Below are positions 5,081-31,048 of a DNA stretch of 37,439 nt, piece by piece. Position 1 is the first letter of the stretch, and each line of letters starts with the position of its first letter. The stretch comes from a virus, in IMG/VR virus record IMGVR_UViG_3300012920_000104, positions 1 through 37,439 of that record. One strand, 5' to 3'. The notes beneath the pieces were generated by a model. That model saw only the letters and a list, made by a program, of their open reading frames with translations. It made no database searches and was not told where the DNA came from. Both the position numbers and the translations under genes were made by a program.

Positions 5081-5086
5081 TACTAA

Positions 5087-5094
5087 CATAAGTA
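5087..5094 (+). promoter_or_regulatory. Late-promoter-like octamer CATAAGTA
   Basis: CATAAGTA lies just after the stop of the 513-aa gene and 17 nt before the relic start at 5112. The same octamer precedes the genes at 13509 and 7183 (minus) by exactly 6 nt. At this site the spacing is looser, so its use is uncertain. Confidence 0.35.
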
Positions 5095-5098
5095 AACA

Positions 5099-5171
5099 AA
5101 GACAGTAAAATATGGACACATTCAAACAATATTACCAACTATTTTTAAATGGATATAATGTTGGTATATAG
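5099..5171 (+). pseudogene. Relic copy of the start of the 5587 gene
   Basis: Positions 5099-5147 repeat 5574-5622, at an offset of 475 bp and with about eight mismatches in 49 bases. The ATG at 5112 opens MDTFKQYYQLFLN, matching MNTFKQYFQLFLE of the intact gene, but the frame stops at 5169-5171 after 19 codons. The two copies flank the 5218-5583 gene. This looks like a duplication, or an insertion of a gene together with a second copy of the leader region. Confidence 0.7.
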
Positions 5172-5204
5172 TAGTATAAATCTCAAACGATATCATAACA
5201 TAAA

Positions 5205-5212
5205 CATAAATA
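5205..5212 (+). promoter_or_regulatory. T4-type late promoter octamer (CATAAATA)
   Basis: CATAAATA is followed after exactly 5 nt by the ATG at 5218, which decides that start over the earlier in-frame ATG at 5149. Confidence 0.55.
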
Positions 5213-5217
5213 AACAT

Positions 5218-5583
5218 ATGAAGAGCCCGGACAACAAATTAATTTACGAAGCATACAAGAATCTAAATGAAGATGCATCACGCGCAGCTTTTGAAGATGC
5301 TTTTTGGTACGCATTGAAACGTGGTGATATGGAATCTGCACGACGAGAAAATGAGATATTGAACACAAGTCGATCCATACCCGGGCAGGACATATATGGA
5401 TATGAAGGCTGGGATGGTGTACAAGCTGGTGTCGAGAAAGGTATCAGTGAAGAGATTTTACGAGCATTCTTCTACCCTAAGATGGGAGATCTTGACTGGA
5501 GCGCTGGTTATAATTACATACTGACCGGCGTCGGACCAGGTGATGACGGCGCTGGAGCCAGAGGCGCAGTATCAAGACAGTAA
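5218..5583 (+). CDS. Small possible head-packaged protein (121 aa)
   Basis: Not recognised as a known family. The chosen start gives MKSPDNKLIYEAYKN, in which IYE fits the (L/I)xE cleavage motif of T4-type prohead proteases; capsid-targeting peptides of T4 internal proteins have a similar short N-terminal form ending in E-A. The remainder is soluble, acidic, and Gly/Ala-rich at the C-terminus. It lies between two copies of the leader of the downstream ligase-like gene, and its stop is inside the second copy. An in-frame ATG at 5149 would add 23 residues but lies upstream of the late octamer. Confidence 0.55.
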   Translation: MKSPDNKLIYEAYKNLNEDASRAAFEDAFWYALKRGDMESARRENEILNTSRSIPGQDIYGYEGWDGVQAGVEKGISEEILRAFFYPKMGDLDWSAGYNYILTGVGPGDDGAGARGAVSRQ

Positions 5584-5586
5584 AAT

Positions 5587-6927
5587 ATGAACACATTCAA
5601 GCAATATTTTCAACTCTTTCTAGAGGCTAAAACCAACCCGGGTGTGAAACTACACCTAAGTCATCTTGAAGATCTGGTGATCGAACAAGGCAAAGAAGGG
5701 TTCAACAAATTTGCTGAACACATGTCACATCTGAAAAATTACATCTACGGATTGGACAGCGAGACAGTTGTGAATCTCAAGGTAGATGGAGCACCTGCAT
5801 TATATTTTGGTGCTGATCCACGACCAGACTACAAAGGTCAATTTTTTGTGGCAAGCAAGAGCGGGTTCAACAAACAACCCAAAGTGAATCACACACCAGA
5901 AGAAATTGCAGCCAATCATGGACATGCTCCAGGACTGGCTCAGAAATTGAACCAAGCGTTAGAATCGTTACGACCAGTTTACGAGAGCATCGGTTCAGAT
6001 AGAATTTATCAAGGTGACATCATATTCACACCAGATGTGAAGCGTACCGAGACCATAGACGGTCAACAACACATCGTGTTTCAACCACAATTGATCAAGT
6101 ATGCTGTCCCGGTGGATCCTGAGAGTGAGTTGTACGCTCGTGTAAAAGACGCAGCATTCGGCATAGCCATACATGACAGCTTCAAAGGTGTCACTGATGA
6201 TGGTACCAACATACGATTCACATCACCAAATAAAAATGTCAACGATCTGGTCGAGGCTGGTAGAAGCAACAACGTGTTCATCGAGAGCAGCACATACAAT
6301 CAAAAACAGATCAATTTGAATTTACCAAGACAAGCCAAGGTGCAACTTGACAGCTTGTTGTCACAAGCACAACAACACATCGAACAAGTGAGTGACACGT
6401 TTGACACAGCGTACACCAGCAACAACAAGTTCATGGGCATCGTGCAACGATTCTTGAATGACGAGGTGAAAAAAGCTGAACGTACCAAGAACAACATCTA
6501 CTCATTGGCATTCGATGGAAACAATTTCAAAGAAGATGTGTTCAGCAAACGATTCTATAGTTTTCTCAAGAAAAATTTTGACAAAGAATCAGCAGGTAAA
6601 GGCGAACGTGGTGTGATGAATGCCAAACAACGAATGGTTGGATACAAAGACATGTTCGAGAATGACAATTTTCAACATTTTGTTATCGCTACACATTACA
6701 TGATCAACATGAAGAAGATTGTTGTTGACTTGTTCACACAGGTCGAAAATCAAATTCAAAAGACCGGTGGCAAGATAGGCAAGAGTTTCATACCTCAAGC
6801 CGATGGATCATTCGCGTTGAGTCGTGGAGAAGGGTTCGTGTTGTTTGTGGGTGACAATCAAGTGAAGATTGTTGATCGATTGGACTTTTCAGCCAAAAAT
6901 TTAACAGGTGGTAGATTTCAAAAATAA
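5587..6927 (+). CDS. Ligase-like nucleotidyltransferase-fold protein (DUF6267 type)
   Basis: 446 residues. K65-V-D-G (VVNLKVDGAPALYFG) resembles motif I of the DNA/RNA ligase and capping-enzyme superfamily, where the Lys is adenylated. YQGDIIFTPDVKR (about residue 139 on) and FGIAIHDSF (about 195) sit where motifs III/IIIa would be. Phage proteins with this layout are grouped, as far as I recall, as DUF6267; activity is unproven. The N-terminus MNTFKQYFQLFLEA resembles the capsid-targeting peptides of T4 internal proteins (compare MKTYQEFIAEA), so the protein may be packaged, cleaved by gp21 and ejected with the DNA. That is inference. Confidence 0.6.
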   Translation: MNTFKQYFQLFLEAKTNPGVKLHLSHLEDLVIEQGKEGFNKFAEHMSHLKNYIYGLDSETVVNLKVDGAPALYFGADPRPDYKGQFFVASKSGFNKQPKVNHTPEEIAANHGHAPGLAQKLNQALESLRPVYESIGSDRIYQGDIIFTPDVKRTETIDGQQHIVFQPQLIKYAVPVDPESELYARVKDAAFGIAIHDSFKGVTDDGTNIRFTSPNKNVNDLVEAGRSNNVFIESSTYNQKQINLNLPRQAKVQLDSLLSQAQQHIEQVSDTFDTAYTSNNKFMGIVQRFLNDEVKKAERTKNNIYSLAFDGNNFKEDVFSKRFYSFLKKNFDKESAGKGERGVMNAKQRMVGYKDMFENDNFQHFVIATHYMINMKKIVVDLFTQVENQIQKTGGKIGKSFIPQADGSFALSRGEGFVLFVGDNQVKIVDRLDFSAKNLTGGRFQK

Positions 6928-8189: not shown

Positions 8190-9308
8190 CTATCTCAATC
8201 CAGTTGATTCAAACACATCACGTGCCACTCCTGCAGAGAATCCATCTTCAACACCCTTCACAATCACTGACACAGCGTTATGACTATGTAGACTCTCATT
8301 GTGCGATGCGATGATTTTAAAATCTAATATGCGTGGCTCGTTGTTTAATTTTTCATATAACAATCGAGATGCATCTTCTACAAATTTTAGATTTGACCCG
8401 TTCATTTCTGCAAAGGCTTGTTCGTCTTCTCGCTTGACCATCACCTGTGTTTCAGTTTGTAGTGCAGCTAGACACAGCTCTTGCAAGTCTTCCACCCATA
8501 ACATGTCATCAAATCTCACACTCACTCTTGCCACACTTCGCTGACTATGCGGAACGGTGGCACGATTTCGATACTTTTCAGCATGTTCACTCAACTCGAA
8601 ACTACATGGGCATGCAGAAGAGTATACAAAATCAAAATGAATGTATTTTTTAAATACACCGGCTTTGGTCAAGTCACCCTCAAACACAACATCATAGTAT
8701 TGATAACCTTCCAGTTCGCTACGCAAGCTATTTTGCTTGATTGGATATGATATTTTAAGCATAATACGAGAATCAAAACACATCAAATTTTTCTTGTATG
8801 TCTCGAGCACATCTTTGATCTTGTCTATACTGAATGTCTCGTCTTTATGATTGTAGAAACTTCTCATGATACGTGACATGTTGATACCTTTTTTATGTGC
8901 TTCTAAACTAACACTACCGGTAACACTTGTTTCAAGTTCGATGGTTGCTCCACTTCTCTTCTTGTATGTTAGAGGTAATTTGAAATTGTGAATACCCACT
9001 TGTTGAATCGCAACAGGCGCTCCTTGAATCAAGCTTGATGGTCCGTTCTGCAAATCTGGTAGTGATGATATATACTTTTTATCGGCTTTCAATTTAGTAT
9101 CATACACTCTGATCGGAGATGCATAGCCTTTGCTATATTCTTCACCCATGATCTCCCGAGCTATAACATCTTTCTCTCCGGTAAGTTCATCATCTCCAAG
9201 CCATTCATAATTGCTTTCCGGTTCTTGTTCTTGCAATTTGCTCACAATACCATTACTACCGTTTCGATGATTAGTTAACTCTCCATTCATAAATTCTATT
9301 TTACTCAT
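8190..9308 (-). CDS. folE2: GTP cyclohydrolase I type 2 (FolE2)
   Basis: 372 residues. FolE2 converts GTP to 7,8-dihydroneopterin triphosphate, the first step towards 7-deazaguanines (and folate). Family signatures are intact: LPDLQN (83-88), SLEAHKKGINMSR (134-146), SACPCS with C233/C235, PHSQRS with H254, REDEQAFAEMNGSNLKFVEDA (293-313, with E301) and ASHNESLHSH (335-343). These supply the metal ligands and catalytic residues of the GCYH-IB family. About 80 N-terminal residues precede the usual family start; they are polar and unexplained. The gene has its own TTGAAC-N16-TATAAT promoter, nearly identical to those of queD and the queF operon. The fold assignment is firm; the role in DNA modification is inferred from the other que/dpd genes. 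Confidence 0.93.
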   Translation of the reverse strand: MSKIEFMNGELTNHRNGSNGIVSKLQEQEPESNYEWLGDDELTGEKDVIAREIMGEEYSKGYASPIRVYDTKLKADKKYISSLPDLQNGPSSLIQGAPVAIQQVGIHNFKLPLTYKKRSGATIELETSVTGSVSLEAHKKGINMSRIMRSFYNHKDETFSIDKIKDVLETYKKNLMCFDSRIMLKISYPIKQNSLRSELEGYQYYDVVFEGDLTKAGVFKKYIHFDFVYSSACPCSFELSEHAEKYRNRATVPHSQRSVARVSVRFDDMLWVEDLQELCLAALQTETQVMVKREDEQAFAEMNGSNLKFVEDASRLLYEKLNNEPRILDFKIIASHNESLHSHNAVSVIVKGVEDGFSAGVARDVFESTGLR

Positions 9309-9365: not shown

Positions 9366-9782
9366 ATGAGCAATTTGACGACAATCATGAACCGTGCTTT
9401 AGGTTCAACATCACTCAAAAAAATTAAATTTAAACGTGACCCCGGTAATCTTGAATCTACCGAGAGTTACGAAGGCTACATACTGGAAGAGGACGATGTG
9501 TCAGGCTCAGTTACAATATTCGTACCAGATCTACAAGACGGTTTAATGAATGTAGATCCTGAGAGCATCGAAGCATATGCTCCTCCAGTAGAGTCTAATA
9601 TATGCAAACTTAAAGCTAGTGCAGCAAAACATTTAATACATACAGGCATGATAGACTGTGAACTGGAGCTACAAAAAATAGACTCGATACAGACAATCGA
9701 GCAATTAGAATTTTATTTGAATCAGTTTGATCTCTGTGACACGCAGATGCTGAACATATACAGAATGAGTTTCAATGCGTAA
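9366..9782 (+). CDS. Protein of unknown function (138 aa)
   Basis: Not recognised. The N-terminal half looks like beta structure (SYEGYILEEDDVSGSVTIFVPD); the C-terminal half is helical with a central Cys. The stop overlaps the nucleotidyltransferase start by 8 nt, so they are probably coexpressed. Confidence 0.6.
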   Translation: MSNLTTIMNRALGSTSLKKIKFKRDPGNLESTESYEGYILEEDDVSGSVTIFVPDLQDGLMNVDPESIEAYAPPVESNICKLKASAAKHLIHTGMIDCELELQKIDSIQTIEQLEFYLNQFDLCDTQMLNIYRMSFNA

Positions 9783-10473
9783 GTTTGACACAGCATACAT
9801 TGACACTCTACGTTTGTTGCATGAAAGCAATTTGAAACGTGTTGGCTTTTTTCCTGGATGCTTCTCACCACCTCATAAAGGTCACTACATGACTGCGAAG
9901 AAGATGAGTATTGAGAATGATGTGTCCTTTATAATAGCTTCTGACACGTGTAGAGATGAAAACGTGACAACAGAAAAGATGGCAGCAATCTGGAAGATAT
10001 ACATACAAGCCATGGGTGTTGGTAATGTTCATGTCAAAGTTGTACCTGGTTCACCTGTGGGTGTCACATACCAAGCGGTCAATCTTCTCAACAACTCTGG
10101 GAAATTGGTATCATCTAAACCAATCGAGACACACCCGGATGCGGAAGATATATATGACAGATCCAAGAGTGATCAAGTACAAATAGCCTTGTACGCCGGT
10201 CAAGAAGATTTTGCCGGGCGTTACTCTGCATTCCTCAAAGGTGATGAACCATACAAAGGCAACAAAGTAACAGACATTGTTGGTCGGCAAGTTGACCGGT
10301 ATGCGTCCGGCACTGAAACGCGACAAGCGATTCATGATATCGCTATAGGTGTGAAAGATGCTGATACATTGAGAAATTTGTTACCGGGTCCTAGTGCAGG
10401 TAATGAATTTACAGGAGCAGGTTTTTTAAACACAGAACAAGAAGATCAAGTTGTAAATATATTATTGTCATGA
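9775..10473 (+). CDS. Cytidylyltransferase-like nucleotidyltransferase
   Basis: 232 residues. GFFPGCFSPPHKGHYMTAKK holds the HxGH motif (H34-K-G-H37) of the nucleotidyltransferase alpha/beta-phosphodiesterase superfamily, and SGTETRQA near residues 178-185 is the second conserved (S/T)xxxR-type motif. Relatives transfer CMP or AMP to phosphate-containing substrates (NadM, CoaD, TagD types); the substrate here is not evident. The N-terminus adds about 22 residues before the first strand (RLLHES) with an LHE site that could be a head-targeting and cleavage peptide. It overlaps its neighbours on both sides, the downstream one as ATGA. Confidence 0.75.
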   Translation: MRKFDTAYIDTLRLLHESNLKRVGFFPGCFSPPHKGHYMTAKKMSIENDVSFIIASDTCRDENVTTEKMAAIWKIYIQAMGVGNVHVKVVPGSPVGVTYQAVNLLNNSGKLVSSKPIETHPDAEDIYDRSKSDQVQIALYAGQEDFAGRYSAFLKGDEPYKGNKVTDIVGRQVDRYASGTETRQAIHDIAIGVKDADTLRNLLPGPSAGNEFTGAGFLNTEQEDQVVNILLS

Positions 10474-30382: not shown

Positions 30383-31048
30383 ATGGCACTTAACTTACTT
30401 GTAGAAACACCAACGGAACGAGAGTTTGAATACATCGTTGAAGAGAACACAGACAGTAAAAAGCAAAATCTGTACATTCAAGGTGTGTTCATGGAAGCGG
30501 AAAAATTAAACAAAAACAATCGTGTGTACCCTCTCGAAGAGATGCACCGGGAGGTGGATCGGTATTTGAAAGAGATGGTCTCACAAGGTCGTGCCATGGG
30601 TGAATTGAACCACCCAACAAATGCTGATGTAGATCTAGAACGTGCTTGTCATATGGTCACCGAGCTCAAAAGTGATGGTAACAAGTTTGTCGGCAAATCA
30701 AAAGTATTATCCACCCCATGTGGTAAAATTGTCGAGGCGTTGATCAGTGACGGTGTGAAAGTTGGAATGTCAACAAGATCGTTAGGCAAGTTGATGGAAG
30801 AGAACGACGGCGTCAGCAAAGTGTCAGACATGAGACTTGTGGCGATCGATTGTGTAGCTGATCCAAGCTGCGCGGATGCGTTCGTTAACGGTATTCTGGA
30901 AAACAAACAATGGATCTGCAACAACGATGGCAAGTTCGTTGAGGTGTATGAAAAATTTCAAGACGGTTTGGCCACACTGCCAAACACAAGTGACGAGATG
31001 CAAGCGTATCTCATGGAACAGATAACAAACTTTATTAAAAAATTATGA
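30383..31048 (+). CDS. 21: Prohead core protease (gp21)
   Basis: 221 residues, near the T4 gp21 size (212). A herpesvirus-assemblin-type serine protease that cleaves scaffold and capsid proteins after (L/I)xE. Catalytic-region motifs are present: GELNHPTNADVD with H77, VGMSTRSLG with S130, and DCVADPSC (156-163). The N-terminus IQGVFMEAEKLNKNNRVYP is typical of the family. It is coupled by ATGA to a 53-codon gene and followed by scaffold and major capsid genes, as expected. Confidence 0.93.
   Translation: MALNLLVETPTEREFEYIVEENTDSKKQNLYIQGVFMEAEKLNKNNRVYPLEEMHREVDRYLKEMVSQGRAMGELNHPTNADVDLERACHMVTELKSDGNKFVGKSKVLSTPCGKIVEALISDGVKVGMSTRSLGKLMEENDGVSKVSDMRLVAIDCVADPSCADAFVNGILENKQWICNNDGKFVEVYEKFQDGLATLPNTSDEMQAYLMEQITNFIKKL

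Follow-up and report, generated by a model that had tools for sequence, protein, structure and literature searches.

The locus and its repeated leader

The window analysed here, the whole 37,439-base record IMGVR_UViG_3300012920_000104, belongs to a T4-like marine virus that has not been cultured. Among its products are a T4-type portal (PF07230, 5e-108) and Gp23 (PF07068, 2.5e-93), both with concordant PHROGs matches, a gp21-type prohead protease, the enzyme class that cleaves capsid-targeting sequences (CTSs) in T4, and a weakly recognised scaffold protein (PF25623, 1e-4, below the family cut-off). Among the ten matches listed, its Gp23 is at most 34% identical to that of named phages, and the figure stays under 60% across all 2487 records matched, which makes the phage a distant member of the T4-like group. 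The DNA of the locus gave only chance matches among phages (five Streptomyces phages, 27 nt, E 0.6).

The locus (Table 1) consists of a DUF6267 gene, a small gene that starts at position 5218 (gene 5218), the remains of a second DUF6267 start, and a long gene upstream. By tblastn DUF6267 is present in 416 phage records, of which 402 bear the name Synechococcus, Prochlorococcus or Cyanophage; Pelagibacter phage HTVC008M also has it. A literature search found no paper on it. The label "ligase-like" reflects its sequence motifs, KVDG (65-68), EGFV (415-418) and K427, within which K65, D67, G68, E415, G416 and K427 are invariant in 11 DUF6267 sequences; KxDG, EGxV and a downstream Lys are motifs of the nucleotidyltransferase/ligase superfamily. 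A fold model made from these 11 sequences (pLDDT 66.8, too poor to test a ligase fold) had no match at E<=0.001, the best being 0.039 with a probability of 0.10, and the one match of the profile to PDB sequences was a haemoglobin (E 0.54). Six close DUF6267 relatives (L002, L003, L004, L005, L014 and L070) were compared. Identity is 76-98% among the first five and the window, L005 covering 178 residues, and is 80% over the last 75 residues in L070.

Table 1. Features of the locus, and the prohead protease gene, in window coordinates
Feature	Position	Strand	Remarks
Upstream hypervariable slot gene, MSNRDISKLYS..., 513 aa	3539-5080	+	six same-position proteins compared; same-position genes of relatives abut or overlap DUF6267
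Candidate promoter block, copy 1, AACATAAGTAAACA	5085-5098	+	octamer CATAAGTA at 5087-5094; 13/14 with 5203-5216
Leader and CTS-like codons, copy 1	5099-5147	+	13-nt leader, then ATG; 12 codons in all; 43/49 with 5574-5622
Relic frame, MDTFKQYYQLFLNGYNVGI, then stop; 19 codons	5112-5171	+	Asn where DUF6267 has Glu 13
Junction filler, A+T-rich, between relic CTS-like codons and promoter block copy 2	5148-5202	+	21% G+C over 5148-5217
Candidate promoter block, copy 2, AACATAAATAAACA	5203-5216	+	putative late octamer CATAAATA at 5205-5212, 5 nt before ATG 5218
Extra 357 nt of copy 2, absent from copy 1	5217-5573	+	carries nearly all of gene 5218
Orphan gene 5218, probable cargo, 121 aa, N-terminus MKSPDNKLIYEAY	5218-5583	+	open frame; possible second type of head-protein leader
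Leader and CTS-like codons, copy 2 (DUF6267 N-terminus)	5574-5622	+	43/49 with 5099-5147
DUF6267 gene, 446 aa, start MNTFKQYFQLFLEA	5587-6927	+	PF19782, E=2.1e-59
Prohead protease (gp21 type)	30383-31048	+	PF03420 Peptidase_S77, E=4.1e-33; phrog_207

An earlier note on this DNA had described two near copies, offset by 475 bp, on either side of gene 5218, and the description is borne out: 43 of their 49 bases are identical. The repeat is made of 13 identical leader bases and the first 12 codons of the DUF6267 gene (30/36), and past its edges the copies agree at 12/47 bases on the upstream side and 11/54 on the downstream side. Nowhere else in the window is the 49-mer matched at more than 27/49, at a site on the minus strand; 200 dinucleotide-shuffled versions of the window gave best matches that averaged 27.5, with a maximum of 32. 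Going from DUF6267 to the relic, the 12-codon stretch has three silent differences (K5, L10, L12) and two conservative replacements, N2D and F8Y. The copies differ by 12% (6/49), as against 7.4% between the window and L005 in 541 bases of DUF6267, so that either the duplication has some age or this short block is fast-evolving.

The likeness extends to a detached element. The block that directly abuts leader copy 1 recurs, at 13/14, ending one base before the start codon of gene 5218. A match this good arose in 10 of 5000 shuffled spacers, and 11/14 is the most that any of the window's other 17 octamer sites attains; a point on the other side is that the block is short and constrained by its octamer. 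Taken together, promoter block, leader and CTS-like codons form a duplicated unit of 63 nt (56/63 between copies), which is contiguous in copy 1 and is split in copy 2 by the 357 nt bearing gene 5218, sitting flush on both sides of that gene, whose last two residues and stop codon fall inside the repeated leader. Set side by side, the two copies are what the empty and the filled version of one site would look like. This arrangement was seen in one contig, and no other IMG/VR contig matched the exact leader pattern.

The first copy had been described as a 19-codon relic of the N-terminus of the ligase-like protein. A frame of that length exists, but the homology covers its first 12 codons only, the 7-codon tail being unrelated. 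When positions 5148-5217 were compared with the window's own DUF6267 continuation, 881 of 1000 shuffles scored as high, and against the DUF6267 of four relatives 643-996 of 1000 did. A longer homology by way of "NPGV" (relic "NVGI") had looked plausible by eye and is ruled out by the same comparison, 643-996 of 1000 shuffles being equal over the five DUF6267 sequences. Copy 1 is a stranded leader that leads nowhere. A plain tandem duplication should have placed DUF6267 codons 13 onward in 5148-5202, where no such homology is detectable; tandem duplication followed by decay would require that the CTS-like codons were spared while the next 55 bases were erased, and a duplication or recombination that ended at the edge of these codons would be simpler.

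Octamers and CTS-like leaders

The passage on cyanophage S-PM2 in PMC2984593 reports NATAAATA as its late promoter motif. Of 31 hand-listed plus-strand starts in the window, 11 have NATAA[A/G]TA in the 25 nt before them, those of the portal and protease genes included, as against 0.22 expected under uniform placement; leaving out gene 5218 and two starts that had been chosen by their octamer, the count is 8/28. The signal weakens when the search is relaxed: there are 60 sites that agree with TATAAATA in 7 or 8 of 8 positions, two of them exactly, and shuffles give 45 +/- 7. That gene 5218 has a late octamer of its own, as had been proposed, is credible, since CATAAATA lies 5 nt from its ATG and fits the placement of octamers elsewhere. 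To judge from these positions, the octamer blocks would act as promoters. Octamers at 2140 (before gene 2154), 5205, 13495, 20723 and 28612 end 5-6 nt before ATGs, and by eye one stands likewise before the gene in the place of 2154 in L002, L003, L004, L005 and L014. With a start site lying roughly one helical turn past the TATA box, as a passage of PMC2988020 has it, and octamers ending 5-6 nt from the ATG, transcripts of late genes in this lineage might carry almost no leader.

The excerpted accounts in PMC9026906 and PMC3012670 describe T4 internal proteins as diverse, with the CTS as their only conserved part; the propeptides are 10-19 residues long, and residues 4 and 7 of IPIII are important to its targeting, residues 8 and 10 to its processing. 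The DUF6267 leader resembles a T4-type CTS. Its start has aromatic residues at the targeting positions (F4, Y7), as has the MKTYQEFIAEA of T4 ipII and ipIII (Y4, F7). The window protein has its Glu at 13, with F11, the T4 processing residues being at 8 (hydrophobic) and 10 (Glu); the T4-type spacing is present in some distant DUF6267s (MKTFKTYLTEA, L017), others of which start MKSLTTYLTEA or MITFKQYI. Proteins adjoining distant DUF6267s start in a similar way (MTNFKQFLEEG, MNSFKQYLKEG, MQGFRSYLKEA, MQPFKSFFYEQ). A CTS-like start is common to otherwise unrelated proteins of the same phages: a CTS pattern, written after these N-termini had been seen, fits 24 of 233 ORF starts versus 6 of 916 internal Met codons in 14 sources that include the near-duplicate pairs L015/L016, L020/L021 and L022/L023. 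It fits eight of 14 DUF6267 starts, and T4 ipII and ipIII; T4 ipI does not fit. The relic retains F4 and Y7, and at the processing position its likely cleavage Glu is replaced by Asn, a stop following after the seven unrelated codons. With a gp21-type protease encoded in the same genome, DUF6267 would be packaged in the virion and its tag removed.

The nucleotidyltransferase-like protein (GFFPGCFSPPHKGHY) encoded at 9808-10497 in L002 and 9775-10473 in the window opens in L002 with MNTFKEFFESF, which is CTS-like, as is its start in L015, MQPFKSFFYEQ; in the window it has a different start, MRKFDTAYIDTLRLLHE, and CTS tags may be swapped between orthologues. In L019 (628-2178) a single frame of 516 aa unites a small CTS-led protein with DUF6267, as if slot and resident genes had merged.

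The exchange slot and the enclosed gene

We compared the locus with the same region of the six close relatives. Neither the relic nor gene 5218 was seen in any of their slots, and in 0/6 did the 2500 nt before DUF6267 hold another M..[FY]KQ[YF]; the relic, in other words, is not a small gene conserved among these six, the finding that the earlier note had named as fatal to its interpretation. The locus is a gene-exchange slot in these phages. Between the gene of the 2154 type and DUF6267, the slot is empty in L070, holds one gene of the MSNRDI, MSDRDI or MSNKDI type in L002, L004, L005 and L014, and in L003 holds a gene of this kind and an 89-aa gene (MDHDNKRIIEAYN...). The conserved start of the slot genes is MSNRDIxKLYS (L002 4445-6004, L003 4529-6004, L004 and L014 4950-6014, L005 4536-5999). 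Residues 1-55 of the window slot protein align with residues 1-51 of that of L004 and L014 at 35-36%, and no alignment at E<0.01 was found with the same-position proteins of L002, L003 and L005; a search by short peptides found no relative of the window slot gene. Between the window and L005, DUF6267 is 98% identical (over the 178-residue part) and gene 2154 is 69% identical, while the slot gene is not alignable at E<0.01. The gene upstream of DUF6267 overlaps its start by 4 nt in L002, L003 and L070 and by 14 nt in L004 and L014, and in L005 stops 1 nt before it. Given overlapping or abutting junctions of this kind, and a variable slot between conserved flanks, the start of DUF6267 looks like a recurrent breakpoint.

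A "GDL...(V/I)E(V/I)K" stretch, present in the slot genes of the relatives, has the look of a PD-(D/E)XK nuclease motif, a reading that found no Pfam or PHROG support. Farther along, window 8190-9308 is a FolE2-type GTP cyclohydrolase (PF02649), and its place in L002 (8670-9338) is taken by a different protein that by eye resembles a FolE1-type enzyme.

Searches with the gene 5218 protein, of a kind that misses distant relatives, found no match in PHROGs or in phages at E<=1 and none in Pfam at E<=0.1 (two stood at about 0.2). Six short exact peptides matched 9 stretches in IMG/VR and 139 in genome_contigs, none of them confirmed, and a search of 12 fragment records over their full length, which had no positive control and covered five of the six close relatives, gave 0/12. 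A fold predicted from the single sequence (pLDDT 71.7) has six helices, its best PDB match being at E 1.8. The N-terminus is not a CTS of the MKTYQEF type. Its LIYE|A resembles the N-termini of the T4 core proteins gp21, gp22, gp67 and gp68 (LLIE, LIAE, LIE, LIPE), and a DNKLI[YF]EAY start recurs in three other distinct phage proteins, N-terminal in 6/6 hits, a subset picked after the hits had been seen. The wider DNKxIxEAY has 41 hits in IMG/VR, with the first possible start within four codons in 9/41 and a Met three codons before the motif in two more; DNKLISEAY (L039) and DNKLITEAY (L053) are internal. DNKLIYEAY is not established as a known CTS, the recurrence being post hoc and these last two occurrences internal. 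Of the ten carrier loci, L063 alone gave a match to window proteins (through one protein), carrier loci L034 and L046 do not look T4-like by eye, and tblastn with the carrier protein of L035 found no phage record. Judging from the position and N-terminus of its gene, the product of 5218 is most likely a small late head protein or injected protein with an N-terminal leader of its own (DNKLIYE|AY).

Origin of the locus and its parallels in T4

We think it probable that a capsid-targeted gene is here immediately preceded by a slot for cargo, in which the 63-nt module was duplicated and the small gene 5218 now lies within the downstream copy. The module, comprising a late promoter block, the 13-nt leader and the first 12 codons, which would be a CTS, would have been duplicated, and gene 5218 would have come to be placed between the promoter block and the leader of the downstream copy. 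That copy would still start DUF6267, its CTS would carry the protein into the prohead and the gp21-type protease would then cut the CTS off; the upstream copy would have been left stranded, ending after 19 codons. The order of these events, and recombination between short repeats as their mechanism, we infer. T4, according to the portion of PMC9391042 that deals with the matter, amplifies and deletes segments by means of short repeats, of 6-10 bp in the case of amplifications, and a repeat of 49-63 nt is therefore ample. The earlier note took the site for the fossil of a duplication, or of a cargo insertion, at a leader that bears a packaging signal, and this is the best-supported reading, given the CTS-like leader, the exchange slot in relatives and the lack of a conserved small gene in place of the relic in the six. 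It falls short in that the likely cleavage Glu is at 13, not 10, and that the pattern fits eight of 14 DUF6267 starts and not T4 ipI.

Copy 1 might instead be the start of a former second CTS-tagged gene, in a tandem like that of ipII and ipIII, whose body has been deleted or replaced; gene 5218 could itself be that body, separated from its CTS when the frame changed and a new promoter arose. In L022 two CTS genes in tandem, of 118 and 130 aa, do stand directly upstream of DUF6267, in the position of gene 5218 with its 121 aa, and the 5218 frame, followed upstream, meets no stop as far as 5149 and so overlaps the relic. Copy 1, however, is by eye nearest to the DUF6267 start itself (YYQLFL, as in L002 and L003), not to the CTSs of other proteins, the G+C content of 5148-5217 is 21%, and gene 5218 comes with a start, an octamer and an N-terminal tag of its own, so that we regard this history as unlikely. 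Copy 1 could also be alive, as a free CTS peptide of 19 residues or as a CTS joined to the 5218 protein by ribosomal frameshifting, with a fraction packaged; the other frame is open from 5149 to 5583. Its F and Y at residues 4 and 7 are at the positions that serve targeting in T4, as an excerpt of PMC9026906 has it, and the changes between the copies are silent or conservative; yet there is but one copy by which to judge conservation, the cleavage Glu is lost, the peptide is present in 0/6 relatives, and an open stretch of 23 codons before 5218 is presumably not rare. A -1 slippery heptamer seen by eye near the end of the relic was discarded, as a -1 shift meets a stop within a few codons. We regard a living copy 1 as very unlikely. 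Equally improbable is an assembly artefact that joined two strains through the near-repeat: the evidence is a single metagenomic contig whose exact leader pattern was matched by no other in IMG/VR, but the copies differ at 6/49 bases, DUF6267 is intact and in frame, and gene 5218 lies flush between promoter block and leader.

If the duplicated module is what we suppose, the locus fits a route by which T4-like viruses gain and swap the proteins they carry, and the idea of internal-protein cassettes, developed for T4, extends to an uncultured marine lineage. The hosts and defences of marine phages are mostly unknown. CTS leaders before DUF6267 could serve as a marker for accessory, possibly injected, proteins in such phages. 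We see a very small chance that the stranded copy is a working element, a free targeting peptide or a CTS added by frameshifting to part of the 5218 protein; by the latter, one gene would yield cytoplasmic and packaged (injected) forms in a set proportion.

The locus is a fresh example of CTS-cassette evolution already known in T4-like phages and visible in T4 itself, and is likely to be an unusually legible intermediate of it. As in T4-like cyanophages with their NATAAATA promoters, the same octamer precedes head genes and gene 5218 in the window, although here it lies just 5-6 nt before many ATGs. Internal-protein cassettes are said to be variable among T-even phages. Their polymorphism, with variable small cargo genes and a conserved CTS (Repoila et al. 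1994, as cited in passages of PMC9026906 and PMC12373910), is matched by what we describe, with the difference that the window is from a marine T4-like phage, that DUF6267 is the resident CTS gene, and that an empty-looking and a filled copy are adjacent. Close, too, are ipIII and ipII of T4, adjoining genes with 47 identical nucleotides, from 15 before the ATG to base 32, and divergence thereafter; the window block spans 13 before the ATG to base 36. In both cases adjacent genes have a common block from about 15 nt before the ATG to the end of the CTS (47 identical in T4, 43/49 in the window), and their sequences differ beyond it. In T4, however, both copies head annotated proteins, whereas in the window copy 1 is stranded, ends at a stop and carries Asn at the site of the cleavage Glu; the gene that follows it differs in its type of N-terminus and has a promoter block of its own.
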